Assembly: GCA_907163375.1 (NCBI GenBank)
Contig: CAJQUW010003176.1
Coordinates: 62,001-126,000 of the forward strand
From: Prostheceraeus crozeri
Lineage: Eukaryota > Platyhelminthes > Polycladida > Euryleptidae
Direction of reading: 5' to 3'
DNA: 64,000 bases
Shown here piece after piece: positions 2,628-56,130 of the stretch. The position numbers and the translations under genes are program-made. How positions within the stretch are numbered: the first letter of the stretch is position 1; the number at the start of each line of letters is the position of its first letter. The notes below the pieces were generated by a model that was not told where the DNA came from, searched no databases, and saw only the letters and a program-made list of their open reading frames with translations.

Positions 2628-4409
2628 GTAGGTCGTCTCTCTGAGCTCCGATCATAGCTTCGGACATTCCAAATCCCGGGTTTCTGTAAGAAACCGACTT
2701 AGAAAATTTCATTGCTGATATCAGCTAAGGCGTCAGACTTAGAGGTTCGCCAGGAGATGGCTTTCGTCTCCAGGCCATGAAAGACTCCAAAACTTTAAAG
2801 GCTTGTAACTTTGCTTCTACAAGTCCGTTTGACTTTATTCAAAAAAGGTTTGGTCGCTATTGACCTGGTCTAAGTGATAAACTACTTATAAAATTTCATA
2901 AGTAGTGCTAAAAAGTTGAAAAATTTAAATTCACTAGTTTTGGAGGTTTTCTGGGGTTTTCGACCCTGCTGAAGTCAATGAAAGCATTTTTAATGATGTC
3001 TGAGCCAGTCTTCTCATGTTATAAGCGGCTTTTCACTGAAAGCGAGCACGACATGGAGAGTTTTGCTGTAATATTCCACTGACAGGGTGTTCATTCGGGA
3101 CGGCGGACGATGCCGTAGTGATAAGTGTGGCAAGGGAGTGTGTCATAGTTAAGACCGTAACCGCTGGGACAACTCATGTCTCATGTTGGGCATTTGACAC
3201 AGTTCTCAACGTAGCACTTTGAACGCCAATCGGTTGAGTCTTAGCTATCTTGTCATGGGTGGCCTCTAAACATCTCCATTGCAAAACGCTGGTGAATCAA
3301 GCTCTCTACGGCTTGCTATCAAGCTACTATCAAAGTCTGTCAACCTCTTACCAACTCTACAGGTTTTCATGTCTGAGCCAGACTTCTCATGGTATAAGCA
3401 GCTTTTCACTGAAAGCGAGCAAGACATGGAGAGTTTTGCTGTAATATTCCACTGACAGGGTGTTCCTTCGGGACGGCGGACGATGCCGTAGTGATAAGTG
3501 TGGCAAGGGAGTGTGTCATAGTTTAGACCGTAACCGCTGGGACAACTCATGTCTCATGTTGGGCATTTGACACAGTTCTCAACGTAGCACTTTGAACGCC
3601 AATCGGTTGAGTCTTAGCTATCTTGTCATGGGTGGCCTCTAAACATCTCCATTGCAAAACGCTGGTGAATCAAGCTCTCTACGGCTTGCTATCAAGCTAC
3701 TATCAAAGTCTGTCAACCTCTTACCAACTCTACAGGTTTTCATGTCTGAGCCAGACTTCTCATGGTATAAGCAGCTTTTCACTGAAAGCGAGCAAGACAT
3801 GGAGAGTTTTGCTGTAATATTCCACTGACAGGGTGTTCCTTCGGGACGGCGGACGATGCCGTAGTGATAAGTGTGGCAAGGGAGTGTGTCATAGTTTAAA
3901 CCGTAACCGCTGGGACAACTCATGTCTCATGTTGGGCATTTGACACAGTTCTCAACGTAGCACTTTGAACGCCAATCGGTTGAGTCTTAGCTATCTTGTC
4001 ATGGGTGGCCTCTAAACATCTCCATTGCAAAACGCTGGTGAATCAAGCTCTCTACGGCTTGCTATCAAGCTGATCAAAGCAATAACTTGGGATGTTTCCT
4101 CAAGGTTTTCAAGTATGCTGAGTTCAAATCTGCTATCAGATTTCAAATTTAACTAAGTCTAAGGCAGCTTTGAGGGGTTAGATCCCAGCTACTGTTCACT
4201 ACCTTTGACTCGGCGTTGCTGTTACCACTTCGGGGCAGTGACAATGATGTCTTCAGCTGTAAATAGTGGGTATCGGGGAAGATCTCTCACTTCCCTAGTG
4301 ATCAGTACAAGGCCTTCGGGCTGTTGACGGGATCGAGTGCCACTCACTATACTCAAATCTATCATTCCTCACTAAGTGTAAAATCATTGTTTTCAGTTTT
4401 TCGCTTCAG
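2628..4409 (+). other. predicted 5'-UTR intron of the left Polinton gene
   Basis: The donor GTAGGT is at 2628 and the acceptor TTTTCGCTTCAG ends at 4409, two bases before the ATG at 4412. The interval has no credible coding frame; the open frames in it repeat with the tandem array and carry no domain. It contains the 373-bp repeats. This is an inference from splice-site words and context; no transcript evidence is available. Confidence 0.5.
2999..4071 (+). repeat. tandem array of a 373-bp unit, almost three copies
   Basis: Copies begin near 2999, 3372 and 3745. The second and third are nearly identical and the first differs at a few bases (for example TTCTCATGTTATAAGCGG against TTCTCATGGTATAAGCAG). 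The third copy ends early at about 4071. The unit has GC-rich self-complementary stretches (GGACGGCGGACGATGCCG, then ACCGTAACCGCTGGGAC). A diverged relative lies at about 5770-5990. Function is unknown. Confidence 0.9.
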
Positions 4410-6788: not shown

Positions 6789-7045
6789 GTTGACTGAATA
6801 ATAACTTTGAAATGTTTTCTAATTCTTAAGTATCAACAAGCAACCAATCAGAATGAACAGCCAATGAATGATGAATATGAAAGTATATATGTAAAGTGAC
6901 ATTCGTGTCATTTCACTCTGTCTTTGAGACGTATAAGTGAAGTGTTCTCTGGCGAATTCTATATTTGAGGCGTGCAAGTGAATTCCAAATTTGAGTGAAG
7001 TCTCTATCTTCTTGAAGTATCAAGCTTAAACATAATTTCGTTCAA
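6789..7045. promoter_or_regulatory. bidirectional promoter between 6339-6788 (-) and polymerase B (+)
   Basis: It contains two CCAAT words at 6844-6848 and 6861-6865 and, for the rightward gene, TATATAT at 6884-6890, about 160 bases before the ATG. The same layout (two CCAAT words, then TATA) stands in front of the rightmost gene at 25751-25798, which supports a shared promoter design. Confidence 0.65.
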
Positions 7046-10000
7046 ATGGTAAGTTGAAAATTTCTTCACTCATCTCCCTCAAACGTGTGGCTAATAGCAT
7101 CTTCCTCAATTTCAGGCATCAACTTCATCACCAACGCCCTCCCTACTCGAGGAAAGTTTAGAGTTGTTGAGTCAAGGTAGGTTGTAACAATACACTGAGA
7201 CTTGAACAGAGATGATAGAATGATTTCTCTTTCAGGTGATACCAGTCCCATCTCGAGCAAGTCCACGTCAACATTGTCGCGGGAATGCAACGATCGGGAA
7301 TGTGCTGACTGTGGACACATCTTCACGAGGAAGCGTGATCTCGTCCGACACATCAAGCGAGGTGTTTGTAGACCTAAGTCAGCATCAATCTCCGAAGGTG
7401 GGGATGATTCTGTTAACGATGTCTCCTTTTCTTGCGATTTATGCATTCAGTCTTTTGAGTCACATTTTGAACTATCTTCACATAGACTTCGACATACACA
7501 CAGTGACGATAGTTATACTAACAGCACCTCCTCTATCCGACTCTCTGAAGTGTCGATAAATAATTTAGTGAGGAACTACCAGATGGAATCCTCAGAAACC
7601 ATTACTGACTTTGAAGAATGGTTTCATCAAAATTCATCTTTGATTGGTGCGCTCTTCAACAATTTAGTCAATTTTAGAATGAAGGCGCTCATCTATCTCA
7701 AAATAAAATATGTAAAAATCGACCACCATACTGGTCAAATAGTAGAGAGGTTGGAGTCTCACATACCCTCCTCTCCTGCAACCGAAGTTGTAGACTGTGA
7801 GTCTTGGATAAATTTTCATATCCAAGGGTTAAAATTAAATATAGATAAATTTAACGAGCGTGATAGTGGTCTCGTTTTTGGTGGTATTGAGACCGCCATG
7901 ATTAAAATCACTTTATTAGAGAACTACTCTGGACGAGGCTCCTTTAAACTTCCGAAAAATTTAAGAAATAAAGCAGCAGTCATTTCTGTAGATTGCGAAT
8001 CGCAATGTTTTAAGTATGCCGTCCTCTCCATTCTCCACTATAATGATGTACAGTATAGCCGATACCGTAAGAGTAAGTATCAACAGTGGGAGAATGAATT
8101 AAAGTTTGATGACTGCAATAGTGAAGATATGAAAATTAAAGATATAGAAAAATTTGAAAAATTGAACAACATCAAAATAGTTCTCCATGTTTGGGAAAAA
8201 GGATTGAAGGGCGTCCGTTACAACTCGCGTTCGAGTTGTTATGACCACGTTGTTAACCTTTTATTAGTAAGACAGGATGACAGTGAGGAATGGCACTACT
8301 GCGGTATTCCCAAAATTTCTCGCTTATACCACCACCTAAGAAATTCTAGCTCAGAGATTTATTACTGTGACAGATGCATTCGCAACTTTAGGAGTAAAAA
8401 TAGATTTGAAACTCATTACGAATGGTGTAAGCGAGGTAAACTACAAATGGAGCGCATGCCCAAAGATAAGGAGTTTTCATATAGAGAGAATGGCGATGAA
8501 CTAAGTCCTCTTCGTGTCATCTATGCTGACATCGAATGCTATATCGATGATATCATCCACAAGCCAGCAGCCATATCCTGCTATGAAGTATGGCATGACC
8601 ATTTCCAAAATAGAAAAAATAAAATGCACGTCTGGCAAGGTGAGGATTGTATTTACCAATTCCTACAATTCCTCGAACAGGCTGTAAAATTTCAACAAAA
8701 GTATGATGGTGAACTCTATCGCAGATCATTGCATATGACAGCAGATGATCAAGCAAAATTTGATAGTTGCAACGTTTGCCCCAAATGTAGTAAAACATTT
8801 GATGATGATAAGATTAAGAAAGTGCGCGACCATGATCACATCACTGGTAAATTTAGAAACGCACTATGTTCAAAATGCAATTTTTCACTTAGGATGAAAC
8901 GGCGTACATTACCCGTCATTTTCCATACTTTCAAGGGCTACGACAGCCATATGATAATAAAAGGAGGTTTAGGTCAAATGAAAGAGTGGAAGCTTGATGT
9001 AATAGCACAAACGAGAGAGAAGTTTATGGCCATGACAGCAAAAGTGCCTGTCGATAAAACTAAAGAAAATAAAACGGTCTATTTTGATATAAAATTTTTA
9101 GATTCCTAACAATTTATGACTGCATCACTGGCCTCTCTCGTACAAAATCTAAAGTCTCTTCCACTAACACAAAATCTTAAGAAACAATATCCAAATCTAA
9201 CCGATGAAGTCATCACACGGAAAGGAGTCTTTCCATATGCATATTTTGATGCGATTAGTAAACTCAGCGAGACATCTCTTCCGCCCATAGATAAATTTAA
9301 AAATGATTTGACCGGCGCAGAATGTAAGACCGAAGATTATGATCATGCACAAGATGCATGGATAAAATTTGACTGCCATACATTTGGCGAATATATGATT
9401 GCCTATCTTAAGTTAGATGTATTTTTGCTGGCTGATGTATTTCAGGAGTTTCGACGAGTGGCATTAGAAGAAGATAAGTTAGATCCCGTCCACTTTGTCA
9501 GTCTGCCAGCCATGTCATTTAAGTCTGCTTTTAAAATGACTGGTGAGACCATTCATCTCTTACAAGATCCAGAGATGTATAATTTATTTGAGCGAGGAAT
9601 TCGCGGTGGTCTCACATTTATAAATAAACATAGATTAAAATCAAAATTAGTAGGCGATGATCACACTCATCTTAAGTATTATGACCAAAATAATTTATAT
9701 GGTAGTTCACTATCCAAACCACTCCCTCACTCTGAGTTTAGCTGGTTAGATGATAGTGATATTCAGCATCTCTCCAACCCTTCTAACATACTAGCAATTC
9801 CAGATGAAGGTGATTGGGGATATTATTTTGAGATAGATCTTATTTATCCAAATAATATTAAACATAAAACCGTAGATTTTCCACTCGCACCCGAATCAGG
9901 TGAAGTGAGTAAAGATATGTTTTCCGACTTTATGAAACAATTTCATAAAGATTTAGAATCATGCGGTCAACCCGACTATAAGCCTTGCCGCAAACTTTTA

Positions 10001-10957
10001 CTCACCCAGTATGATAAGGAAAACTATCTAGTCCACTTTAGCATCTTAAAATTTTATTTAGAAATGGGCATGATTTTAAAAAGAGTTCACCGCATTATTA
10101 AATTTAGACAGAAAGCCTTCCTCAAACCATATATTGATAGCAACAGTCAGAAACGTGCACTAGCCCAAAATAATTTTGAAAAAGATTTTTATAAGTATAA
10201 GAATAATAGTCTATTTGGTAAGACGATGGAGGATGTTAGAAAACGTGTAAACTATAAACTAGTCAATGATGTTACAAAATTTAAGAAATTGGTCTCATCA
10301 CCTCTATTCATTGATAGAGACATTATCGATGAGGACCTTGTAGGTTTTAAAATGATAAAATCTGAAGTTGAGTTGTGCAAGCCCATCTATATTGGTCAAG
10401 CTGTACTAGATTACTCTAAGCTTGAAATGTACCAATTCTTTTATAAAATACTAAAACCATGTCCTCTCGTAAAAGAGGTTCGTTTGTTGGGTGGTGATAC
10501 AGATAGTTTCTTCTTAGGTATTACCACTCAAAAAGATTTAAATTTCAATGAAGTAGGAAAATCTTTAGAAAGATATTTTGACACATCAAATTATCCTACT
10601 GATCACCCACTCTACTCCATCAAAAATAAGGCAAAACTTGGCTGCTTTAAGGATGAGACAGCAGGGAAGGAAATAGATGAAATGATTCTCCTCCGTCCAA
10701 AAATGCACAGTATGAAATTAAAGGATAGCGACGATAGTATTAAGCGCGCTAAAGGCATATCAAGATCATTGGTGTCTAACATGAAACATAAAAATTTCAG
10801 GAAAGCCTATAGAAGTAAAAATATAACGTTTGTCAATATGACAATCTTAAAATCTAAGTCGCATGAGATCAAAACTCATACTTTTAGGAAACGGGCGCTT
10901 TTAGCATGGGAGGATAAGAGGTGCTGGTTAGAACACAACATATCTCTTCCACAATGA
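7046..10957 (+). CDS. polB: protein-primed family B DNA polymerase of the Polinton, spliced, with a nonsense codon
   Basis: Predicted exons are 7046-7048 (only the ATG), 7116-7176 and 7236 onward; phases fit. The first exons encode a short Ser-rich N-terminus. C2H2-like fingers follow (CADCGHIFTRKRDLVRH; CDLCIQSF...HRLRH; CDRCIRNF...HYEWC). The 3'-5' exonuclease has IYADIECYI, HTFKGYDSH and YLKLDVFLLAD; between the first two is an endonuclease VII-like zinc segment (VRDHDHITGKFRNALCSKCN). Palm motifs are intact: YYDQNNLYGSS (A), NNSLFGKTMEDVRKR (B) and GGDTDSFF (C). It copies the element from a protein primer. The frame is cut by TAA at 9107-9109 between the second and third exonuclease motifs and continues in phase at 9110. 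A TGA at 10955 may also be early, because the frame stays open to 11032. Confidence 0.96.
7049..7115 (+). other. 67-bp intron directly after the polymerase ATG
   Basis: The sequence is ATG|GTAAGTTG ... CTCAATTTCAG|GCATCAAC. The ATG at 7046 stands alone as the coding part of its exon. The joined frame runs without stop into the next exon. Confidence 0.8.
7177..7235 (+). other. 59-bp second intron of polymerase B
   Basis: The sequence is GTCAAG|GTAGGTTG ... TTTCTCTTTCAG|GTGATACC. It splits a Gly codon (G|GT), and the phase matches the long downstream frame. Confidence 0.75.
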
Positions 10958-11211: not shown

Positions 11212-12762
11212 TCACTTTGTTTTCCGAAACACTAAAGTTACGAGGGATTTAGTATCTTTCACATGGATGCACTCTTGTAAACCATTGATAATTTTGATAG
11301 CAATAGAGGGTATAGTTTGTTTGACGACGGGATGATAGAAAATAGATTCAAACATCTTCTCGACTATTCCATATGAAGCGTCTTTATCATGAATGAAATC
11401 ACGTAAAATGTATTCTTTTTTCTCACCAACAGAAATAGGTAGAATCAAATCACTTTGAATGTAAAGGTGCTGTTCATGTTTATCAAGTGTCATTGGTGTT
11501 TCTATACCAATCGTATGCGCAGCAGCAAACACAGTTTGTAGCATTGAAAAACCAAAGAGTTTTTTCAAATTTTTACTCAATTGACATTGAATGTCATCAC
11601 CCAGTTTCAGAACAACGCGTTGATTTTCAATTGAAAACGAAATGTGGTGTGTCTTTACATCATAGTTACTTTTCATCACATGCTTCAACTTCTGTTGTAT
11701 ATAAGGATTTACTACATGAATGAAGCTTTCAACTGTATGATATAGACGCGGCATTATATTGATAGCAACTTTAGATTCTTCACAAGACTGGTAAATTTTC
11801 TTGATGCGATCACCATAGATGTCCACCCACCATTCATCATTAACTGAATCAGCTTTAGTGTGATATTCATGAGAAGCATACACCACACCGCTTCCAATAA
11901 TAGGTGTATAATGTCTTACAAAATGACGCAAGGTTGGAGAGAAATAAACTGTAAGTTTGTCATTATATTTCTGAATGACCAACTTATTTTTGTCCACCAT
12001 AATTTTCTCTCCATACTTCTTACCCACAGTCTCATTCCATCGTTTTACTAACTCAATAAGTGATAAAGGTTGAACACCACGCTTTTTCAAAATGATGCGT
12101 TCTTCGCATTCTACAACATCTTCATCAAATATTTTAAATCTATAATGAAATTTGTTGATTCGATTTGAATAAACTTTTTTAACATTTGCAGTAGCAATTG
12201 ACGTTAGATGTAGTCCATGGCCAAAACCGAGATGCGGATAGAATTCATTATCCAACCTCAGTGTAAGACCTTTAGTAAAAGAATGAAAGCGAAGGAACTG
12301 TCTCCCACTCCAATGATAGATAGTAAACTCATAAACTTTCTGATCCTTATTCTTCATGATGGAAGTATTACCACTATTGAATGCCTTAATAATTTTCTCA
12401 TTCCCAAATGGTTCATAAGAATCTGATTTTATCTGAATCCATTCATAGTTCCACTTTCCATCTGATGTTAAATTGTATGGGAACTGGAATGCATTATTCA
12501 TCGTTATTCCATCATGGGTGCGAGGAGTCAATATCATTTCTTCCAAATCATTCACATTCTGAATATTGCTATCATAGCAAATACTAGAAACGCCAACCTC
12601 CCATTCACCTTCTAAATGTAGTGGGCGATTTAATTCTACTCGATAGTCTGATGGTTTATTTTTGGGAAATTTATTCATAGAAGCATTACTGGGCAAGTAG
12701 ATTAGAAACGAGTCCTTATGTTCACTTTCCATATTATTCACATTGGAAAAATATATTAGCAT
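11212..12762 (-). CDS. Polinton WEVGV-motif protein, intact copy
   Basis: The frame is open for 516 residues. ATG at 12731 (residue 11) begins a sequence closer to the family pattern (DSFLIYLPSNASMNKFP) and is perhaps the true start. Near residue 50 is the hallmark NRPLHLEGEWEVGVSSICY, and the end is LVTLVFRKTK, close to the LHFR-type ending of this family. I recognise it as one of the large, poorly understood proteins found in many animal Mavericks and annotated only as uncharacterised; a virion or surface-fibre role has been supposed, but nothing here proves it. It is followed upstream by a paralogue at 12883-14169. No break is seen. Confidence 0.75.
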   Translation of the reverse strand: MLIYFSNVNNMESEHKDSFLIYLPSNASMNKFPKNKPSDYRVELNRPLHLEGEWEVGVSSICYDSNIQNVNDLEEMILTPRTHDGITMNNAFQFPYNLTSDGKWNYEWIQIKSDSYEPFGNEKIIKAFNSGNTSIMKNKDQKVYEFTIYHWSGRQFLRFHSFTKGLTLRLDNEFYPHLGFGHGLHLTSIATANVKKVYSNRINKFHYRFKIFDEDVVECEERIILKKRGVQPLSLIELVKRWNETVGKKYGEKIMVDKNKLVIQKYNDKLTVYFSPTLRHFVRHYTPIIGSGVVYASHEYHTKADSVNDEWWVDIYGDRIKKIYQSCEESKVAINIMPRLYHTVESFIHVVNPYIQQKLKHVMKSNYDVKTHHISFSIENQRVVLKLGDDIQCQLSKNLKKLFGFSMLQTVFAAAHTIGIETPMTLDKHEQHLYIQSDLILPISVGEKKEYILRDFIHDKDASYGIVEKMFESIFYHPVVKQTIPSIAIKIINGLQECIHVKDTKSLVTLVFRKTK

Positions 12763-12771
12763 ACTTTTGCA

Positions 12772-14169
12772 TTAACTCTTCATTCGGAAATGGAGTGTGA
12801 TACTTGTCACAGCATCTTTATGAAAAGGAATCAACGCACCAGCATCGTCATAAATTGCAATATCAATTTGTGGGATGTAGTTTCATTTCAGCTTTGTATA
12901 ATGCACTTTCTTGAAAGTATGCTCAGATAAAATAATGCAGCTTTTTGGCTGGTATGGTATCATTGCTAGCAATGGAGCTTCAACATCTCCCACACGTACA
13001 TCTTCACCAATATTGGAATATATCTGAAAATAGTTAATACGACGCGATAGCGACATGTCTGCGCTAGCTTTGGTTACAGTGCCACTTTTAAAGATATTTT
13101 GATCAAAACCCAAAATGTCCATTAGAGTTTTATCCATAATTAGTTCAATACCTTTTCCACTTATAGTGAGAGACAAAGTACCTTCTTTTTCAGAAAATGA
13201 AATATGTTGCTCATTAATCACTTCATTTAAATAATCTACAACCAATTTAACCGAAGTAATAATGCGAGGCATCAACACTCTTGTTTCATGTAAGATACCA
13301 CCTAAAGGCTCTACATACTTTCTGTATAAAGATACGGTCCATTCTGTATCAAATTGATTTGGCCTTTCACATGGTAAATGTTGCATATCAGATTTTCCAT
13401 GAACAGCTGCAGAAAGATGTCGTAAGAACTGATGAAAATCTTTTGAACAAACTAATACTAGATCATCATCATTTAATTTACTTATTGCAATATGATTAGA
13501 TGATTTGATATAAGTCAATGTTGCCACTTGTTTACTATCAACTCGAAGGAGATAATCAAATTTCTTCAATAATGTTTCAGGAGTCATGTTTGTCTTTCTT
13601 GGCTTAATCACAATCTTCTTCACCAACGTCTTCTCATTTCTTGGAATAAGATCTACATAATAAGCTTCCTCTCGATATATTAACTGTTTATGACCACTTA
13701 TGTGGTAATTAACGTTAAAATTATCATAGCTTGTTAAGGCGCTAGCGAGGTAACCTATATCATTTCTTAAACTTGGACTTAAACCAACAATCCAATCTTT
13801 CTCAACTACATGATGTACATAATTATTATCATCATTGTGCGGAGTAAATTGGACAATATGTTTACACGCTTTATTCAAGAAATCATATATAAACTTTTTA
13901 CATGATAAGAGATCTTTCTTTGGCCACTGTGGAATGTATACTCGGCAGCCCTTTTCACATTGGTAAGCAGCTGTACGTCTCATATTAATAGTCATTACCT
14001 CATAATCAAAAGTATAGACACAGTTGCTATAAACACGTTGAGTGACACCCACTTCCCAATTTCCATTTAGCTGTTGTGCATGATCAATGGGAGTAGAAAA
14101 GAGTGCGGCTCGATTACTAGCAAATCTCTTAGTAGCCGCATTGCTAAGCAAAATATGATAAAAGGACAT
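12772..14169 (-). CDS. second WEVGV-motif protein, interrupted by a late stop codon
   Basis: It starts at ATG 14169 (SFYHILLSNAATKRF...) and has NGNWEVGVTQRVYSN near residue 40, so it is a paralogue of 11212-12762. Both also share a DEW/TEW-V-x-x-Y block in the middle and an LFGF/ILGF block later. The frame meets TGA at 12883-12885 after 428 residues. The same phase then stays open for 36 codons to TAA at 12772 and ends with the same kind of tail as its partner, so the TGA is best read as a nonsense mutation that removes the conserved C-terminus. It lies 35 bp from the divergent gene at 14205. Confidence 0.75.
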
Positions 14170-14204
14170 TTTGATATTGCTGATCTGCGGCTTTGCATAA
14201 CATC

Positions 14205-14561
14205 ATGAAGACTGGGATTTTGGACTCTCTACAATATATCAGAGTTGATCGTGATGGAAACGTACATTTCAAAAATTCTCATGGTCATTCATCAAGAGGT
14301 ATTACATTAACATGGCGACAATTTGTCAACCTCAATGATATCATGAGGGATTTGGAATATTTTGAAACATTAAGATTCATCTCCTTGGGTGATCAAGTTT
14401 GGCTTCAACATTACAGAAATGAAATTCAAATCTACCATTCTCATTCCGCAAACTGTTTCTCATTTCGCAAATACAATTGGGAGAAGTATAGAAGATATAT
14501 ACATCGCTCCATCATGACATTTATTCGTCGTGAGTTCATCGCCCTACTATGCAAATCTTAA
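14205..14561 (+). CDS. PC4-like small protein A, accessory Polinton gene
   Basis: 118 residues from ATG 14205; the frame is open a little further upstream with a TTG. It is a clear paralogue of the next gene: DGNVHF / DRNVYF, NWEKYRRYIHRSI / SWEKYKRKVHRSI. Each protein seems to hold two halves built as several short strands followed by a helix (SRGITLTWRQFVNLNDIM; then CFSFRKYNWEKYRRYIHRSI). This pattern resembles the single-stranded-DNA and transcription cofactor PC4/Sub1. The resemblance is by pattern only, so treat the fold as a hypothesis. The neighbouring TBP-like gene makes a transcription role attractive. Confidence 0.6.
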   Translation: MKTGILDSLQYIRVDRDGNVHFKNSHGHSSRGITLTWRQFVNLNDIMRDLEYFETLRFISLGDQVWLQHYRNEIQIYHSHSANCFSFRKYNWEKYRRYIHRSIMTFIRREFIALLCKS

Positions 14562-14583
14562 TCAGACATGACTATCACGCACC

Positions 14584-15234
14584 ATGAGTTGGAAATTAGA
14601 TTCCCTACAACGTATTGAAACGGATCATGATCGAAACGTCTATTTCAAAGATTCAACTGGAAATGTGAGAAGAGAGTTTGCTTTATCTTATCGTCATTTT
14701 CAATCTCTACATCATATCATGAAGGACTTGAAATACTTCTATATGAAAAGACATTCACGTATTGGAAATCGCATCTGGCTGCTCGTCAACAATCGGCGAA
14801 TTCAACTCTATCATTCCCAACTTCATACTAACTTCACATTTCATCAAGGTAGTTGGGAAAAGTATAAAAGGAAGGTACATCGCTCAATTTACTCATTCTT
14901 TCATCATGAAGCGTCATCGCTACACCATCGTCAACATTCTCCGTCGCTTCAGACTCTACACCAAAATCGATCTCACAACATTACACCAACACCTTCCAAA
15001 CAGCAAGTATTACCCGGGCCGACCTCAAATGTTAGTGGTGAAGATGAACAATGCACGGAATCTTCAACTCTTCCCAAATGGGACTGTACAGATTCTCGGC
15101 GCCCTTTCTCATTCATCGGCGCAGTCAATGCGCTTAGAGCTACAAAGACTACTACGTCGGATATGGAAGAGGGAGAGGTGTGTGATGTCGAATCTGACTG
15201 TGGACAATATGGTGATCTCTACTCAATTGAGTGA
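14584..15234 (+). CDS. PC4-like small protein B with a C-terminal extension overlapping the TBP-like gene
   Basis: It starts 22 bp after gene A. Residues 1-110 align with gene A along their whole length. The frame then continues about 105 residues beyond the point where A stops, through a His/Ser/Thr-rich and finally acidic stretch ending GDLYSIE. This extension overlaps the TBP-like frame (14906 onward) in another phase. The extension may be real overlapping coding or simply an open shadow; the conserved part is 14584 to about 14915. Confidence 0.55.
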   Translation: MSWKLDSLQRIETDHDRNVYFKDSTGNVRREFALSYRHFQSLHHIMKDLKYFYMKRHSRIGNRIWLLVNNRRIQLYHSQLHTNFTFHQGSWEKYKRKVHRSIYSFFHHEASSLHHRQHSPSLQTLHQNRSHNITPTPSKQQVLPGPTSNVSGEDEQCTESSTLPKWDCTDSRRPFSFIGAVNALRATKTTTSDMEEGEVCDVESDCGQYGDLYSIE

Positions 15235-15451
15235 AAGTGTATCATTTTTGAAGATTCGTACCAGCAGTTACAATTTGTGTTATGAACCCGAACTTTTTCC
15301 TGCAGCTCTCATTAGTTGTTGGTTACCTGTGCATGTGGCAATCTTTCATAATAGTAAAGTGATCATTACTGGACTAAAATCTCATGTACAAGCAAATGTG
15401 ATCCTAGACTATCTCATCGAGTATGTACGTACCCAGCGGATTGTAAAATAA
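14906..15451 (+). CDS. TATA-binding-protein-like protein (TBP-like)
   Basis: 181 residues from ATG 14906, the size of a bare TBP core; the frame is open upstream but that part overlaps gene B. Two direct repeats are visible. Repeat 1 has TIVNILRRFRLYTKIDLTTL, SKYYPGRP and LQLFPNGTVQILGA, matching the TBP pattern IVN...IDL..., YNPKRF and LIFSSGKMVVTGA. Repeat 2 has YEPELFPAALI and VAIFHNSKVIITGLK, matching YEPELFPGLI and LIFVSGKIVLTGAK. Of the four DNA-bending Phe positions three are kept; the first (RF in TBP) is Pro. It would bind promoter DNA in the nucleus. The AATAAA at 15447-15452 overlaps its stop. TBP ancestry is well supported; its actual target is unknown. Confidence 0.82.
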   Translation: MKRHRYTIVNILRRFRLYTKIDLTTLHQHLPNSKYYPGRPQMLVVKMNNARNLQLFPNGTVQILGALSHSSAQSMRLELQRLLRRIWKRERCVMSNLTVDNMVISTQLSESVSFLKIRTSSYNLCYEPELFPAALISCWLPVHVAIFHNSKVIITGLKSHVQANVILDYLIEYVRTQRIVK

Positions 15452-15481
15452 AAAACAATTTTCCAACATGATGTTTTTATT
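15447..15481. terminator. convergent polyadenylation signals overlapping both stop codons
   Basis: AATAAA at 15447-15452 overlaps the TAA of the TBP-like gene (15449-15451). TTTATT at 15476-15481 (AATAAA on the minus strand) overlaps the stop of the protease (15477-15479). Confidence 0.7.
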
Positions 15482-15938
15482 TCAAATCATGATAGAACTT
15501 ACAAATCATTTTTTCATTAGAGGATGGATTACATGAAAAGTTTTGAATAACAGATACAAATCGAGATACATGTAAACGTTTTAAGATGAAGTACAGTACA
15601 AAAGCACCACACGTTGATGAAAGTGGATGTTGTAGTATGCGTTCATTTCGCTGATATTGACGCGTATGTTTTCTCAACCACTGCTGTGTTGGTATATTTG
15701 GAGGTTGAGGAAGAGAGTCAAATAGTTCACCACGTCGGTCTTCTCCAATAAAGATCGCTTTCCAATGCTCACCGCCTAAATTCTGCGAATGAGTGTTTAG
15801 CACAATAAAGATGGGATAGTGATTTACTGCAGGTGGTAAGGTATCGAGTGAATAGACATTATCGAAAGCTTTCAACGTCCCTTCGTCTGCATTACGCTGC
15901 ACTTTAGTCTTAATATCGTCAGCAGTCAACCAACTCAT
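15477..15938 (-). CDS. adenain-like cysteine protease (Ulp1/C5 type)
   Basis: 153 residues, no break. The catalytic set is present in the expected order: His58 in GGEHWKAIF, Asp74 in ELFDSLPQ, Gln103 as the likely oxyanion residue and Cys110 in SSTCGAFVLYF. Polinton and adenovirus proteases of this family mature virion proteins. Its ATG overlaps the capsid stop (TAATG), suggesting both are made from one message. The length is somewhat short compared with adenovirus protease, as usual for Polintons. Confidence 0.92.
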   Translation of the reverse strand: MSWLTADDIKTKVQRNADEGTLKAFDNVYSLDTLPPAVNHYPIFIVLNTHSQNLGGEHWKAIFIGEDRRGELFDSLPQPPNIPTQQWLRKHTRQYQRNERILQHPLSSTCGAFVLYFILKRLHVSRFVSVIQNFSCNPSSNEKMICKFYHDLK

Positions 15939-17214
15939 TAACGATTATACTGAAGAATCACGTCACGATACTTTGTAATTTCAATATTTGAATCGAAGAC
16001 TGCATAAATTAATACATTGATCGTCTCAGGTAGTGTTCTTTTGAACTCCAGATCCAAGCGAATATTATGAGGCACGTTCGCTTGACGATAGGGTGCACTA
16101 ATATCGCTGTCAGCAGTCAAATCAAATGCATAAATAGTATATCCACTCTTAAACTCTTTCATAGTAAGTCCGTTGGTGTCATCCGTATTGTAAAAGCCAA
16201 AGACATCCATAAAATCAACATAACTGCGCATAAATTGATCCGAAGCAAAATCTCGTTTGTAGGGTGGACCAGGATGACTCACACCATTTACACGTAAAGC
16301 AATTTCACTTAACTGATTGTGTTTAAAATTGAAAGGATTCTTCTTTATATTACCATTAAATGCATCATTTTCAACCATTGCCACCATGAGGAGCTTCGGT
16401 GCTTCCGATGGAAAGAGGCCATCTTTCATGAAACTCTTTTGATCTTTCGGAATTGTAAAGGTGAGAAGCTTTGTATGCTGAACGGGGTAAATGGCATTTT
16501 GGCGGTTAAGACCTTCAGCATGTCCTCTAATGACACTTGGATTCGGTACTACTCGACGAATGTAAAGTGCAATATCTTCCACATGAATTCTAAAATTGTC
16601 AACTTTAGCAAATGCATTCAGCGCAAATTCAGTCTTATTCAATGTCAGCTTGAGTCGCATGCTGGTATTACACAGTAAAAACTTTGACTGTCTAAAGAAG
16701 TCTAAATTCAGCGGACCATATAGCTGACATACTTTACTATCTTTAATCATAGCAGATCGCTTTACAAAGCCACTGTTTGTTTCAACATCAAATTTTCCTG
16801 CTTCATCTCTGTACCATCCCATGGCTTCCATATGACTTTTTTGTGCTGCTGGATGAAACTGTGATACATGATTGAAATATGATTTATAGGGATAATCGCT
16901 TTGACCACCTTCCACCTGCTGCTCTCCAATCATTAGAGAAACATCGCGAAGTAATGTAGTCAATGGTAAATTGTTCAGTCCAACTTTATGTGCATCGTCA
17001 ATAGCAGTTCCATCTGATTGATGAATTCTAAACCTCAAATCAACCATCGCATAACTCAAATCTATGTAGTCATCACTACCACCAGGAATAACAAATTCAA
17101 TAGGCCAGCATTCTCAGCTGTTCGAGGATGATAATCTACAATACTTGAACTAAGAATATCTGTCTGTATGGCTTGTTGATCAAACAAACAAAAACCGGAA
17201 GTTTTACACTCCAT
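15938..17214 (-). CDS. major capsid protein (double jelly-roll type), frameshifted
   Basis: The long frame 15938-17059 carries the recognisable Polinton capsid pattern: PLTTLLRDVSLMIGEQQV, SDYPYKSYFNHVSQF and EAMGWYRD, the family known in nematodes as the transposon-derived F54H12.2 protein. The true N-terminus begins at ATG 17214, two bases after the stop of the preceding gene, in a different phase. The two phases are separated by a single missing base close to 17105, so about 36 N-terminal codons are out of frame with the rest. Both sides are otherwise well preserved, so the lesion is recent. The protein would form the icosahedral shell. Confidence 0.85.
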
Positions 17215-17672: not shown

Positions 17673-17713
17673 AGCTCAAACCCTAAGCATTGTTAGTTAC
17701 AACTTTGCATGAA

Positions 17714-18941
17714 TCACTGTCGATCACTTAGATGAAAGATGTCGGCACGACGCATCCAAGATTCCATGCTTGAAGGATAACCAGTCCATTTAACAAGACA
17801 CCATTCTTCACCTTGCCGTTTTTTACATCGAATGATTTTCTCTACCAAATATGTTTCACTTTCAGTGACTACCTCAATCTCATCGCGGTAAAAGCTACCC
17901 TCAATTTCTTCATTATCGTAATCCTTCAACTTGTAGGTGGTTGGAGAGTCTTTTTGATTAATCCTTGATACTGTAAATACCTCCTCTGTCCAATTCGGAA
18001 GGTACCCTTTAGCAAAAACACTTTTCACTTTTGAGATTTCACTTTTACACTTTATCACCAATTTTCACATCAATTTTCACAAGAGTGCGTTTACGTTGCA
18101 ATGATTCGCGCACTTTATCTACATTGTCAACATTTACATCTACTGGTCTGAGTCCAATAGAACGATGGATAGAGTGATTGTAGGCATGGAGTGTATCTTG
18201 TAGAACCTTTGTCCAATTTTGTGTCAAGTTGGCAGTAAAATGTCGCCGCAAGCGATTTTTTAATGTGCGATTAAAACGTTCAACGAGTGCAACTTTATAA
18301 GCACTCTTTACACTAAACAACTCAATGTCATGCCTCTCAAATAATCTTCTCACATGCTGATTTTCAAACTCTTTTCCTTGATAACTCTGAATTCTTTTTG
18401 GAATCGGACCTTCTCGAAAAATTGTTTGGAATGCTTTTGCTACTCCTTTCCCTTCTTTAGTTTTTAAAGGTTGAGCCCACGCATAACGCGAGAAAATATC
18501 AATGACGGTTAAAATAAAATTATTGCCCGAGTTATGTTTTGAAATGGAGGCGACATCGCACAAATCTGCTTGCCACTGTTCATTGATGTCATGAACAATA
18601 TAATGGCGGGTGCGGTACTTCTTTTTCGCTTGTTTGTGGAGTGTATAGGTAGCCTGACCCTTTAACCATCGTTTCACTTGTGATTGTGGAAGACCACTCG
18701 CTTTTGATAATTTCTTGATAGATGCAAGTCCTGCCGGATGTTTTACATCATAATAGATTGACTTCAAACGTTCAGTCGATGACGACTGACTCTTTTTCCT
18801 CCTTCTCATCTTTTTGTTTTCTTGCCTTTCTACATTTACAACAACTGCAGCATTTAGCTTTAGCGGTTTTGCGATCGTGTTCACATTGCTTAGGGGTTTC
18901 ATAATGAGAGCTGGCGCAGCAAGTGCACGTGACAACGACAT
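17714..18941 (-). CDS. int: retroviral-type integrase with chromodomain, frameshifted and active-site mutated
   Basis: The frame 18045-18941 holds the N-terminal helical region (from about residue 45; the residues before it overlap the preceding gene) and the DDE core. First Asp is D126 (QWQADL) and Glu is E221 (LVERFNRTLK). The second catalytic Asp should precede QGKEF; here residue 187 is Tyr (codon 18381-18383, TAT where GAT is expected). The C-terminal SH3-like domain (GYLPNWTEEVFTV) and a chromodomain (YLVEKIIRCKK...WCLVKWTGYPSSMESW) are in another phase at 17714-18061. The phase change lies at 18045-18061. Integrase would insert the linear element; this copy is doubly inactive. Confidence 0.93.
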
Positions 18942-20294: not shown

Positions 20295-20325
20295 TTTATT
20301 ACTTTGAGATTCAACATTTGCATAA

Positions 20326-20682: not shown

Positions 20683-20733
20683 TTTCCGTATTAGTCTTTG
20701 CTAAAACCTATCTTTATCACATTTGCATAGGTA

Positions 20734-21057
20734 CTAACTATTGCGGCATAAGTGACACTCGAAATGAGCAATATCACAGTGGTTACATTTGCAAAGTTGA
20801 ATGCAATTACGTATGAAACAGCGTTGACAAAAAGCATGCTTACATCTCTTGAAGATGCGCTTTTCATTTCCATCCTTTCGCTTACATACATCACAACACA
20901 TAGTTTCACCGTTACTGATGTCTATAGCAAGTCTTTTTGAAGATATGAATTTGCTAGCCTTTTCTAAATAATAGACACATGTACAGAAGGAATATACTTC
21001 GAGAGTGAGCAGACATAGCTCGAAAACCAGTTGTGCTACAATCAAGTACCACTGCAT
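20734..21057 (-). CDS. membrane-anchored RING-finger protein, accessory Polinton gene
   Basis: 107 residues from ATG 21057, which lies 3 bp from the stop of the preceding gene. Residues 3-30 are hydrophobic (WYLIVAQLVFELCLLTLEVY), a likely signal anchor. The C-terminal half has a C3HC4 RING spacing: C55-x2-C58, C72-x-H74, C77-x2-C80, then C91-x2-C94 (or C101-x2-C104). RING proteins of this shape are E3 ubiquitin ligases, and viral ones often act on membrane or immune proteins; here only the zinc pattern and anchor are seen. It is not a known Polinton core gene. Confidence 0.65.
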   Translation of the reverse strand: MQWYLIVAQLVFELCLLTLEVYSFCTCVYYLEKASKFISSKRLAIDISNGETMCCDVCKRKDGNEKRIFKRCKHAFCQRCFIRNCIQLCKCNHCDIAHFECHLCRNS

Positions 21058-22793: not shown

Positions 22794-24446
22794 TCAGATT
22801 CTCAACAGTATAAGCACTTTGTGAGCTTCGCTACTCTGCGATGACGAGGACACACGAAGTTTTGACAGAGACACTGATGACCACACTTTGCAACGGCCAA
22901 ATTTTGATTGAAGAGTGGTCAAAAGAAGAGAAGTTGCTGGTTGCGTAAACCCCAAGATCTCTGCGGCATGTTTCGTAGCACGCGGCAAGTTACGGCTTTT
23001 CTTGTGTCTCGTTTCTGCATATGGTTTGGCCAACATCAAACTCAACTGTTTCATGAAATGTCGCCGAGAGTTTGGATAACCGTCGTGTTTCATTATGAGA
23101 AAAGCGTTGAAAGCCGACACATCAAGCATATTATAAAAAAGAAGTAACGGCCAACGAACTGTCTTTCTCCTGCATGTAAATTCCTCAATGTTCTCATCGA
23201 ACTGGTCCACTCCTTTCTTCCCGAAGTTGTAGTCGATTATCATTCGTGGTTTCACTGACGATTCCGGAACAATTTCATTGCCAGAGTGAGATGAGCTTAA
23301 CAACACAACGTTTCGGTTCTTCTTCGGACAGTAGGAAACCATAACAATCTTGTTTTCGTGATCACGAACGAAAACTGAAGAATTAGGCTGGCGATCCTTA
23401 CTTTTCAATTGTGGGGGAATTTCTCTTCTGTTTATCCTCACGGTCCCTAGCAACGTTAAATCTTTCTCGAGGAGTGAAGTAGCGAGAGAATAACTGGTGA
23501 AATAATTATCTGTCACAATATCTCGACGAGATCCATACACTGGTACGCACAATTCCATCACTACATCTTTTTCGAGATTTCTGTGAACTTTGTTGTCTTT
23601 CTTTCCGATGTAGATAATTGAATTCAGAGCAAAACCACTCTTGGCCTCACAAAGCCAAAATATCTTGACTCCATATTTAGCAGGCTTTGACGGTAAATAT
23701 GTTCTTCCGGGTACCTTGCCCCGGTATCCGACAAGCTGTTCATCAACGGTTAGGACAGTATCAGGTACATAAAATCTCATTAAGTTGCGTTGGAACAAGT
23801 CCCATATCTCCCGTATGGCAGTGAGGCGATCATCCTTCAGACGTTCTTCCCGATTTCGAAAGTCATCGAACCTCGCGGTGCGAAGAAAAAATTTGAATCG
23901 CAGAATGCTGATCACGGCCCGAAAGAATGGCCTTCCATCGGTAGGATTCCACAATTCTTCTATCGATGTGACATTGTCTCTATCGAGACCAGCCCGCAGT
24001 AAAATTGACAGACAAGCTAATATTTCGTCGAAAGTGAATGGACACATGTACGAATGAATTTTCCTGACAGTCCGTATGACGTCGCTCACTTTCCTATTTG
24101 TGTATCTCAAAATAATGAGGACGATTTCTTCGTTGATAAACAACTGAAATGCCTCCTTCTCTGATGATGGGTGAGCCAGATTACGCGGATGAAAGTTCGT
24201 GATATTTTGGTTTCTTGACCTGGACTGAAATGGCTCTGTCGAGAAAATTATATCGTTTACTTGAATTTCCGAAGGGAGAACCTCTTCCTCTACTTCATTG
24301 CTGTCACTTTCGCTGTCAGTGTCATTTTGAATGGGAGACAGTTCACCGAAAATTTCGTCTTCTGATGCACTTTCGTCGAACGAATCATTGTTTTCGCTGA
24401 GATTCATGATCAATTCCATCGCGGCTTTAGCACTTAGTCGAGTCAT
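22794..24446 (-). CDS. piggyBac-family transposase, C-terminal frameshift
   Basis: 550 residues. The acidic N-terminus is typical. The DDE_Tnp_1_7 catalytic core is complete: D235 (LTVDEQLVGYRGK), D313 (RDIVTDNYFTSYS) and D414/D417 (GKKGVDQFDEN). SKPAKYGVKIFWLCEAKSG is a family signature. The expected C-terminal Cys-rich DNA-binding domain is absent in this frame, which ends SSSQSSEAHKVLILLRI. In another phase, from about 22884 to a stop at 22802-22804, a Cys-dense tail is readable (KCGHQCLCQNFVCPRHRR). One base lost near 22880-22884 therefore removed the domain. The protein cuts and pastes its element at TTAA; this copy is probably defective. Confidence 0.93.
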   Translation of the reverse strand: MTRLSAKAAMELIMNLSENNDSFDESASEDEIFGELSPIQNDTDSESDSNEVEEEVLPSEIQVNDIIFSTEPFQSRSRNQNITNFHPRNLAHPSSEKEAFQLFINEEIVLIILRYTNRKVSDVIRTVRKIHSYMCPFTFDEILACLSILLRAGLDRDNVTSIEELWNPTDGRPFFRAVISILRFKFFLRTARFDDFRNREERLKDDRLTAIREIWDLFQRNLMRFYVPDTVLTVDEQLVGYRGKVPGRTYLPSKPAKYGVKIFWLCEAKSGFALNSIIYIGKKDNKVHRNLEKDVVMELCVPVYGSRRDIVTDNYFTSYSLATSLLEKDLTLLGTVRINRREIPPQLKSKDRQPNSSVFVRDHENKIVMVSYCPKKNRNVVLLSSSHSGNEIVPESSVKPRMIIDYNFGKKGVDQFDENIEEFTCRRKTVRWPLLLFYNMLDVSAFNAFLIMKHDGYPNSRRHFMKQLSLMLAKPYAETRHKKSRNLPRATKHAAEILGFTQPATSLLLTTLQSKFGRCKVWSSVSLSKLRVSSSSQSSEAHKVLILLRI

Positions 24447-26555: not shown

Positions 26556-26561
26556 AACAAA
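26556..26561. repeat. right target-site duplication AACAAA
   Basis: Six bases directly outside the right terminus, identical to 1195-1200. Confidence 0.95.
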
Positions 26562-54122: not shown

Positions 54123-56130
54123 CTATGGTCTAATCAATTCATATCGCTGACATTCAACGATGAAATGAAATAGATCTTCTGTCTTTTCAAGATTGCATGA
54201 GGTACATGAACATTCTTCAAATAATCTGCTGCTTACGTTTCTATATTTGTTTGTTTGAACTGCCAAGTTGTGGCTACCTGTTCTGAGTTTTAAGATGGTT
54301 CTGGTTACATTATTTTCTGCGGATGCATTCAAATAACATTTTGTTTCACAGCTAAATTGACAAATTTGGAAATAATCAAGTCCATTCATGCTATTTTTAG
54401 CACTGTAAATCCACTCTAAAGTATTCTATCAATTGTGTATCTATTGTCTTAATAGATTTCAGTTTTTCATCATGACTTTGATTATCCCACAAGTCTTGCA
54501 AATATATTTTAGTTAGTAATTTTCAAATCCTATAGCACCAAGTATTTTTAAATTGCTTTTTCGTCAATATTCTTGTAGATGATGCTGTATAGCTTTTCAG
54601 CTAATGATAATTTTTTGCAGTGCAAGATTCTCATCCAATAATGTAAGGCTGCCTTATAAAAGTGATACTCAATTGGTTTTATACCAAATTCACCAATTAT
54701 ACTATAAGTTGCTGTTGTGATTTTCAGATGACAAAATCTTTTGTAGGATTGCACTTGCAGCTTATTCAATTCTTTCAAATTCAAATGATGACAGAATTCG
54801 GCACAGTGCTTTATTTGAGAAAGAGTTAAGATTTCAAACGCATCTTTTAGTAAAGTTCCATTGACATCTCCAAATTCCTTTAAAGTTTTGCTTGTTAAGT
54901 ATGATGACGTTTTACCCTTCTTTTCTAATTTCTGAATATGCTTTTTACTATTTAAAGATATCCACATACCTAGGTACTTATATCCGCCAACAACATTGAT
55001 AATGTTCATAGTATTATGTATTTCTATGTTTTGTATTTTTAAGTTAGAATTCTTTATCGCAATTTTCGTTTTGTCATAATTAATTTCCAAGAAATTTTCT
55101 GTGCAGTAATTTTGCACTAACTTGATTTGTTTTATCAGTCCATCTTGTGTTTCACTCATTAGCAAAATGTCGTCAGCATAGATCATAGCTGAAATTTTTA
55201 GGTCTCCGATTTCGATTGGGTTGAGACGTTCCAGATTTTTATCAAATGTTGTTGAAAGGTCGTTCATGTATATGCAAAATAACGTGGGAGACAAGCTATC
55301 ACCTTGCGGGATTCCATTCTTTAATCCAAAAAGTTCACTTTCATCACCATTATAAAGTATTCGATATTTTTTTTCAAGAATATTAGTGATTAAAGCTGAT
55401 AACTTATCATTCGGAATTGTCCTTTTCAACTTTCGTATTAGTTTTAATATTGATATGGAATCAAAAGCTTTTGATATATCGATGAAACACAAGAAGAGTG
55501 GACGCTTTTTATTCTTATAAATCTGTAGTATTTCATTTAATACCATGATGTTGTCTAGGACAGAATTTCCTTTAATGAAGCCGGTTTGAGACGGATGCAT
55601 GATATCGTTTTCGTTTAGCCATTTAATTACTCTATTGTTTATAACTTTTGTGAGAATCTTTTCTAAATTAGAAGAAAGATTTATACGCCGGTAAGACTTT
55701 AAATCTTTGATATTTCCTTGTTTGTATATTGGTGTGATCCAACTTTCTTGCCATGGAATTTCACAGGAAATAAGTAAATTGTTAAACAAATGCTTTAATA
55801 CATCCTTCGCATCATTTAGGTTCATCTTAAACATTTCATTGGTCAATCCATCTGGGCTACTAGATTTCGAATTCTTAGCTGATATTATAGCATCTATTAT
55901 TTCATTATCGGTAAATTCACAGTCAATTTTTTCATTTAAAACTTCTGTCTCTTCAGTGTCATGTCAACTGTTGAGTAGTGCCATTTTATTCGTGACGGTT
56001 TTTTTGATGTCAACAATTTCTATTTGTAATCGAAATTCATCTGCTGTAAAATCTTTTGCACATTTGAATGCTTTTTTATCTTTGTTTAGAAGTACACTGC
56101 TACAGTCTAGTGATGATAATTATGTCCAAA
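54123..56130 (-). pseudogene. degraded non-LTR retrotransposon (reverse transcriptase part of ORF2)
   Basis: The main frame, 54548-55846 (432 residues), has the reverse transcriptase motifs in order: SQTGFIKGNSVLDNI, FLCFIDISKAFDSI (D123), NGIPQGDSLSPTLF and MIYADDILLM (YADD at 223-226). A second frame, 54123-54389, carries the C-terminal Cys/His segment (CSCTSCNLEKTEDLFHFIVEC) seen after RT in CR1/L2-like LINEs. Upstream, 55850 to about 56130 continues in broken phases (KNSKSSSPDGL precedes the RT). The endonuclease part is missing, so the copy is 5' truncated. The clade is not settled. Confidence 0.88.

Follow-up and report, generated by a model that had tools for sequence, protein, structure and literature searches.

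Why would a Polinton carry a gene for a TATA-binding protein (TBP)? The question is raised by a 64,000-nucleotide stretch of the genome of the flatworm Prostheceraeus crozeri (contig CAJQUW010003176.1), referred to here as the window, which corresponds to C2634:62001-126000 in the genome assembly (14,165 contigs totalling 2.05 Gb). Within the window is an element of 25,355 bp (positions 1201-26555) whose bounds are set by terminal inverted repeats. Its termini read AGTAGT...ACTACT and a 6-bp target duplication, AACAAA, flanks it at 1195-1200 and 26556-26561. Judged by its ends, the element is a Polinton; AGT-type ends of this kind correspond to the Maverick end type described in passages of PMC8097293. 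The TBP gene (14906-15451, plus strand) encodes 181 residues and follows two open reading frames (ORFs), ORF1 and ORF2. By its aligned residues, the protein has an N-terminal DNA-binding half that is uniformly changed beside a nearly canonical C-terminal lobe.

A first-pass annotation of this DNA had proposed a TBP with both repeats at 14906, and the frame bears this out. It is open for 181 residues, contains both sequence strings quoted for the repeats and matches PF00352 of Pfam over two stretches (E 1.7e-20; 73.1 bits against a cut-off of 22.9). Profile searches agree across databases. The protein matches 35 distinct TBP sequences in the PDB at E 2.8e-7 or better, as well as ten TATA-box-binding models of NCBIfam (E 4.3e-19 to 2.5e-6), the latter all under their family cut-offs. 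A protein search returned 61 homologues at E<1e-3 among 90 candidates, each with a TBP domain. These homologues sit on contigs of up to 24.7 kb, and those from beyond this genome are presumably Polinton-borne. In a tree with five cellular TBPs, the 62 sequences (the window protein and its 61 homologues) lie together on one side of a branch with a support of 100/100. The window protein shares 21-28% identity with the TBPs of human, yeast, and M. jannaschii. By these sequence comparisons, the 181-residue protein is a true TBP-family member of a separate lineage.

The residues that contact DNA differ sharply between the two lobes. The list of minor-groove contacts of yeast TBP used here agrees with Table 1 of PMC12529657. 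All residue counts are over the 62 members, with gaps scored as different. In the C lobe, 58 of 62 members match yeast at six of the eight contacts. N159 (62/62), V161 (62), F190 (61), P191 (62), F207 (62), and T215 (61) are kept, while L205 is replaced by A, T, or S in all 62 and V213 by I in 44. For the N lobe this holds for two of eight contacts, in 48 of 62 members; the kept residues are N69 (50/62, the rest being gaps) and F116 (62/62). The other N-lobe contacts have changed in a consistent manner. A101 is M and V122 is Q in 62/62, L114 is Q in 58/62, T124 is L in 56/62, F99 is P in 58/62 (three gaps, one Q), and V71 is M in 38/62 and H in 11/62. The earlier count of three DNA-bending phenylalanines out of four is thus correct, with F116, F190, and F207 kept and F99 not. 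Loss of this fourth intercalating residue says more about function than about family membership. Two further positions, I194 and V203, are L and H, respectively, in all 62 members, and together with L205 we take these to be the positions of the altered-specificity triple of yeast TBP. The uniformity of the N-lobe change across members points to a re-specified TBP, since decay would not be uniform.

The protein-binding surfaces have fared differently from one another. TFIIB-contact residues are kept (E186 in 61/62, E188 in 62/62, L189 in 55/62). On the TFIIA surface, Glu191 is Lys in 46/62 members and Arg in 4/62; this residue and the other changed residues listed for the surface are TFIIA contacts of TBP. 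The TFIIA link suggested by the first-pass annotation is weakened accordingly.

Because one DNA-binding lobe is changed while the TFIIB face is kept, we regard the protein as, on balance, probably a promoter-selectivity factor that directs host RNA polymerase II (Pol II) to genes of the element. The earlier proposal, in which the element guides host Pol II to its own promoters, is thereby retained on other grounds, namely the DNA face and the TFIIB face, but with TATA dropped as the box. Once bound, the element's TBP would bring host TFIIB and Pol II to the element promoters. A role other than promoter function might instead be considered, such as sequestering TFIIB or TFIID subunits in a host shutdown, in which case the ATGCAAA box described below would be unrelated to the protein. 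The N lobe lacks Phe99 and two hydrophobic contacts, the TFIIA-contact residues are changed, and competing for TFIIB needs the kept TFIIB face only, all of which suit such a role. A pure protein sink would not, however, need C-lobe DNA contacts that are near-invariant over 62 members, and the N-lobe changes are uniform rather than decayed. We consider this explanation unlikely.

How does the promoter-selectivity factor proposed here compare with known TBPs? It shares with eukaryotic and archaeal TBPs the two-repeat signature, most C-lobe DNA contacts, and E186/E188/L189, and it differs from them in being Polinton-encoded and in its changed N lobe and TFIIA surface. ORF24 of Kaposi's sarcoma-associated herpesvirus (KSHV), BcRF1 of Epstein-Barr virus, and UL87 of human cytomegalovirus are described, in the portions of the literature drawn on here, as virus-coded TBP mimics for host Pol II. 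The late box of these mimics is a non-TATA sequence, TATT, in passages of PMC12529657. According to the same passages, KSHV ORF24 is polar at positions L114 and V122 and has a small residue at L205, three contacts at which the window TBP is also changed. They further describe features of ORF24 alone, with additional domains extending to residue 752 and all four phenylalanines kept. The window TBP, in contrast, has 181 residues, nearly all of them covered by the repeats, is without herpesvirus-type extra domains, and has one Phe changed to Pro. ORF24 is also without the acidic TFIIB residues (yeast E184 and E188 in those passages of PMC12529657), whereas the window TBP keeps both Glu, which are 186 and 188 in the present alignment. 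ORF24 thus shares contact changes and is without the TFIIB residues, and the likeness is therefore one of kind and not of membership. TBP genes also occur in 59% of mirusvirus genomes (passages of PMC10132985) and in Yellowstone Lake phycodnaviruses (passages of PMC4602308), but these viruses have large genomes that also carry additional genes of their own, and they are likened to the Polinton by gene presence.

A fourth comparison concerns gene position. In vertebrate Mavericks, the gene PZ is the last of the polymerase-strand module and faces the other module at its protease end, according to the consulted part of PMC8097293. The TBP gene is placed in much the same way: the polymerase-strand genes end with it, and the protease gene faces it. 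Compared by position alone, the TBP gene may be the uncharacterised Maverick gene PZ. The ATPase gene is placed differently, belonging to the polymerase module in vertebrate Mavericks (same part of PMC8097293) and to the other strand in the window.

It has been proposed that Polintons stand near the point from which several groups of eukaryotic DNA viruses arose (passages of PMC4028283). We met no account in the literature of how Polintons time their capsid genes, and a Polinton TBP with a uniformly changed lobe is a concrete candidate for such a timing switch. It may also offer a natural example of a TBP with altered specificity, to be set beside the herpesvirus mimics, which are changed at some of the same contacts. 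Searches of openly licensed papers, including passages of PMC10675990 and PMC11071296, found no TBP in a Polinton, which does not prove novelty.

Which sites might such a TBP select? The first-pass annotation had named TATA boxes at 6884 and 25751. TA-rich stretches exist at these places, but they are not supported as the element's general promoters; the one before the polymerase gene lies about 336 nt from the first polymerase ATG. Canonical TATA boxes in general were rejected for this part, as TATAWA within 200 nt of 4/16 gene starts, against 12.6% of random positions, is not a clear enrichment. A single candidate precedes the TBP gene itself. Within the ORF2 coding sequence, 35 nt ahead of the TBP start codon, lies TATAAAAG (14863-14870, plus strand), which is kept in three of four copies of a diverged lineage of the element, hereafter lineage B (L079-L082). 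Relative to the window, lineage B is 83-87% identical in TBP and about 74-78% in ORF2; three of its copies have an ORF1 that is 82-84% identical, and in the fourth ORF1 is fragmented.

The sequence ATGCAAA is associated with gene starts. It occurs six times in the element and 23 times elsewhere in the window. Before the small basic gene was recognised, ATGCAAA was found within 80 nt of 5/17 starts (p 2.9e-7), which becomes about 0.005 after correction for 16,384 7-mers. With that gene included, all six occurrences lie at most 65 nt upstream of a start and in the sense orientation. When starts were placed at random, 0/300 trials gave any 7-mer as good, in a test that took 7-mers with 4-12 occurrences and that includes hindsight.

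On the plus strand, the box at 14549-14555 stands 28 nt before ORF2 and is present in 2/4 lineage-B copies. The other five are on the minus strand. The box at 14192-14198 is 22 nt before the gene for a 428-residue protein and exact in 3/4 lineage-B copies, and that at 12766-12772 is 33 nt before Met11 of the gene for a 516-residue protein (3 nt before its first ATG) and kept in the 3/3 copies that align there, L080 having no alignment. A 151-residue basic protein is encoded 31 nt downstream of the box at 17704-17710, which is found in 4/4 copies. Before the ATPase gene, the box at 20317-20323 lies 22 nt from the ATG of the long frame seen in relatives, and the box at 20722-20728 lies 39 nt from the small basic gene, which has an in-frame stop here; both are kept in 3/3 lineage-B pieces. 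Spacing to the likely start codons is thus 22, 22, 28, 31, 33, and 39 nt, taking Met11 for the 516-residue protein and the relatives' ATG for the ATPase, and the corresponding distance from TATAAAAG to TBP is 35 nt. In all, lineage B keeps ATGCAAA at 18/21 examined sites, piece L092 being without alignment. At the gene for the 151-residue protein, 0/7 motif columns vary compared with 23/61 flank columns (window, L079, L081, and L082; L080 omitted).

A mechanism can be sketched from these parts. The element's TBP would bind asymmetric sites that resemble TATA in one half only, and the best candidate would be the ATGCAAA box before ORF2 and the five opposite-strand genes. The canonical lobe would read TAT and the changed lobe the GCAAA half of TATGCAAA, with the orientation of the lobes on the box assumed from known TBP-TATA structures. 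TATAAAAG is an ordinary TATA box at a spacing similar to that of ATGCAAA, so host TBP could start a cascade at the TBP gene, which the element's TBP would continue in the manner of an early-to-late switch. Element-specific partners would be provided by ORF1 and ORF2, and the acidic end of the ORF2 tail, described below, would be a possible activation region. We put forward the full cascade using the ATGCAAA box as tentative. The wider proposal of an alternative form of Pol II initiation, joining an early-to-late switch, a half-TATA TATGCAAA, an overprinted ORF2 partner, and a TBP that is perhaps PZ, is likewise possible and rather doubtful.

Several observations weigh against tying the box to the TBP. 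The association is one of co-occurrence alone. Twelve of the 18 listed gene starts have no ATGCAAA, and it is missing before the putative capsid, protease, integrase, and polymerase genes and that for a 230-residue protein; the capsid, protease, integrase, and 230-residue protein genes may be read from upstream boxes. The footprint at the gene for the 151-residue protein has a p of only 0.047, and the ORF2 site overlaps the last codons of ORF1. A second TATAAAAG, at 10438 on the minus strand, is followed by no long gene or frame. Four 10-kb stretches of lineage B contain 28 ATGCAAA, with 12 at a gene start (11 by script, plus L080:4192, counted as the promoter of the gene for the 428-residue protein), and 15 of the 16 others are inside matched genes, antisense ones included. 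At a further locus, L086, two of seven (1315 and 1856) are not at a known start. It is thus only in the window copy that the box is exclusive to gene starts.

Finally, ATGCAAA equals what we take to be the core of the POU octamer, and ATGCAAAT the octamer, so a host factor may read the box. ATGCAAA would then mark host POU-factor sites, and the element's TBP would work on ordinary TATA-like or TATA-less promoters. In keeping with this, ATGCAAAT is found at three of the six sites. All six nevertheless point the same way with respect to their gene, at 22-39 nt from its likely start codon, where a core element would be expected and not an upstream octamer, and we judge the octamer explanation improbable.

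What are the two frames that precede the TBP gene? Their description as tandem, same-strand paralogues upstream of TBP is correct. ORF1 (14205-14561, plus strand; 118 residues) has no known-family match, and ORF2 (14584-15234, plus strand; 216 residues) is an ORF1 paralogue with a C-terminal tail, the two being 42% identical over their common part. The second paralogue had been ended at 14920, which is wrong, as the frame continues to 15234. Linkage of the trio also stands, since ORF1- and ORF2-like frames lie upstream of TBP in 10/10 loci, some of the frames broken, and the order ORF1-ORF2-TBP is identical in 4/4 lineage-B loci. Database relatives of ORF1 and ORF2 number ten in all. Two, P0062 (ORF1) and P0068 (ORF2), are 98-99% identical to the window proteins, with JGI among their sources and contigs reaching 12.9 and 10.3 kb; near-identical element DNA is therefore present in other data sets. 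For another ORF1-family relative, P0063, the longest contig is 1,771 bases, as it is for the TBP homologue P0001, and the two are perhaps on one and the same contig.

The first-pass annotation had proposed that both paralogues are PC4/Sub1-type coactivators. The best profile alignment is a short in-register match of about 15 residues, RGITLTWRQFVNLN against KGISLNPEQWSQLK, and the PC4 profile aligned with the first half of an ORF1-family protein gives a score that 6/100 shuffles equal. The PC4 profile is thin, with two sequences. Against the whole protein, 22/100 shuffles are as good, and with 17 sequences 36/300 column shuffles reach the PC4 score, as do 36/300 for the half alone. At E up to 10, PF02229 is matched by 0/8 members, and the sole family listed for these eight is INTS1_R4, in one member, at E 0.14. 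NCBIfam gives no PC4 match either, and PDB profile hits of ORF1 and ORF2 are weak and unrelated to PC4 (best E 0.033). A PC4 identity is thus unsupported by these comparisons, and we think it very unlikely. An internal duplication of PC4-like halves within ORF1 was rejected, as shuffles were as good in 86/100 cases for the second half against PC4 and in 95/100 for half against half. In PHROGs, the only matches were weak and to families without an assigned function (best E 0.012, ORF2).

The ORF2 tail is overprinted on the TBP gene. It comprises 108 codons and overlaps the part of the gene encoding the TBP N-terminus by 329 nt in a different frame (14906-15234, plus strand). Its end is acidic, with Asp or Glu at 9 of the last 24 residues. 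Might the tail frame be open by chance or through constraint on the TBP frame, with no protein made? ORF2 is intact in 45/61 copies and broken in 16/61, and the tail is open in 3/4 lineage-B copies, with a stop in the fourth. In the overlap, 14 TBP-changing lineage differences divide into eight that are tail-silent and six that are tail-changing, about 41% silent being expected, and these counts show no clear selection on the tail. On the other side, synonymous shuffles of the TBP gene seldom keep the tail frame open (1/20,000 codon permutations and 3/20,000 codon draws), and four ORF2 relatives, P0068-P0071 (99, 78, 67, and 54% whole-protein identity), share the stop position and a similar acidic end. 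An open frame without a protein therefore appears unlikely to us. A subfamily of ORF2-TBP fusions was considered and rejected. Four copies read from ORF2 into TBP, each via a different deletion, which indicates decay and not design.

The element appears to belong to a young Polinton family at very high copy number. TBP was located at at least 150 places in the same genome, these being the best of 11,875 first-look candidates; the window matches at 100%, the others are 99% identical, and none has an internal stop. A distant TBP query also gave at least 150 scored places, at least two with a stop, and at least one place, C7549, appears in both lists. Sixty copies, picked by best TBP score, were fetched, and together with the window they have a median pairwise difference of 1.5% of bases, from which these copies are taken to be young. 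TBP is intact in 61/61 of these, largely by construction because the copies were found by best TBP score; ORF1 is intact in 51/61. Six of the 60 copies are highly divergent in the TBP region and the sequence upstream of it. For selection counts these six were removed (55 left), and a further nine that have indels in the trio were then excluded, leaving 46. Private changes among the 46 number 51 nonsynonymous, 17 synonymous, and one stop in ORF1, and 57 nonsynonymous, 15 synonymous, and six stop in the first part of ORF2, both near the neutral expectation. Changes common to at least two of the 46 are few (14 nonsynonymous and 6 synonymous in ORF1; 5 and 6 in the first part of ORF2). A search of viral contigs and genome contigs gave no usable match.

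Locus L086 (C9053, 858-4679) has a structural module with an integrase 40%, a 230-residue protein 52%, and a capsid-like protein 59% identical to those of the window. This module adjoins an ATPase that is 96% and a TBP that is 98% identical, and there is no protease match. By these identities L086 looks like a chimera, as if two Polinton lineages had recombined.

The remaining genes of the window copy are arranged around the trio. Convergent with the TBP gene is that for an adenovirus-like cysteine protease (15477-15938, minus strand), which matches C48 at E 0.0027 and C5 at E 0.047, both under cut-off. It is followed by a putative major capsid protein gene (15938-17047, minus strand), without a Pfam or NCBIfam match, and by an rve integrase gene (18045-18941, minus strand; PF00665, E 1.5e-8, above the Pfam cut-off). 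Residues 44-105 of the integrase protein have double-homeobox (DUX4) domains as best PDB matches (E 3e-5), with the Ty3 integrase ranking behind them (E 0.005), and may be a homeodomain-like DNA-binding part. Matches to a packaging ATPase (A32-like) are weak and under the Pfam cut-off. On the plus strand, the putative DNA polymerase B region (7220-10957) consists of two same-frame parts, 7220-9109 and 9116-10957, with an in-frame stop between. The first part matches PF02945 (E 1.2e-6), an endonuclease VII-like region, and has a C2H2 finger match under cut-off; the second gave nothing in the Pfam search and no PDB match. Among the element proteins there is no polymerase or capsid family match in Pfam, or in the PDB for the second polymerase part, and both labels are putative, that of the polymerase going by layout. 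The 428-residue protein (12883-14169, minus strand) is encoded by an open frame divergent from ORF1. A related open frame encodes the 516-residue protein (11212-12762, minus strand), which as a query matches the 428-residue protein gene of L082 (35% over 66 residues, E 2.6e-6). The window copy has in-frame stops in the polymerase frame and the small basic gene, and its ATPase frame is broken near the 5' end; relatives have longer frames.

Other features were noted in passing. A frame for a piggyBac-type transposase of 550 residues (22794-24446, minus strand; PF13843, E 1.9e-69) lies inside the Polinton and is either a nested insertion or a captured gene. A cysteine-rich protein of 107 residues, RING-like by eye, is encoded at 20734-21057 (minus strand). 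Near the left end of the element, a 300-nt repeat occurs three times at a 373-nt spacing with 98% identity (2996-4041). Outside the Polinton, the window contains a reverse transcriptase frame at 54548-55963 (minus strand; PF00078, E 9.2e-37).

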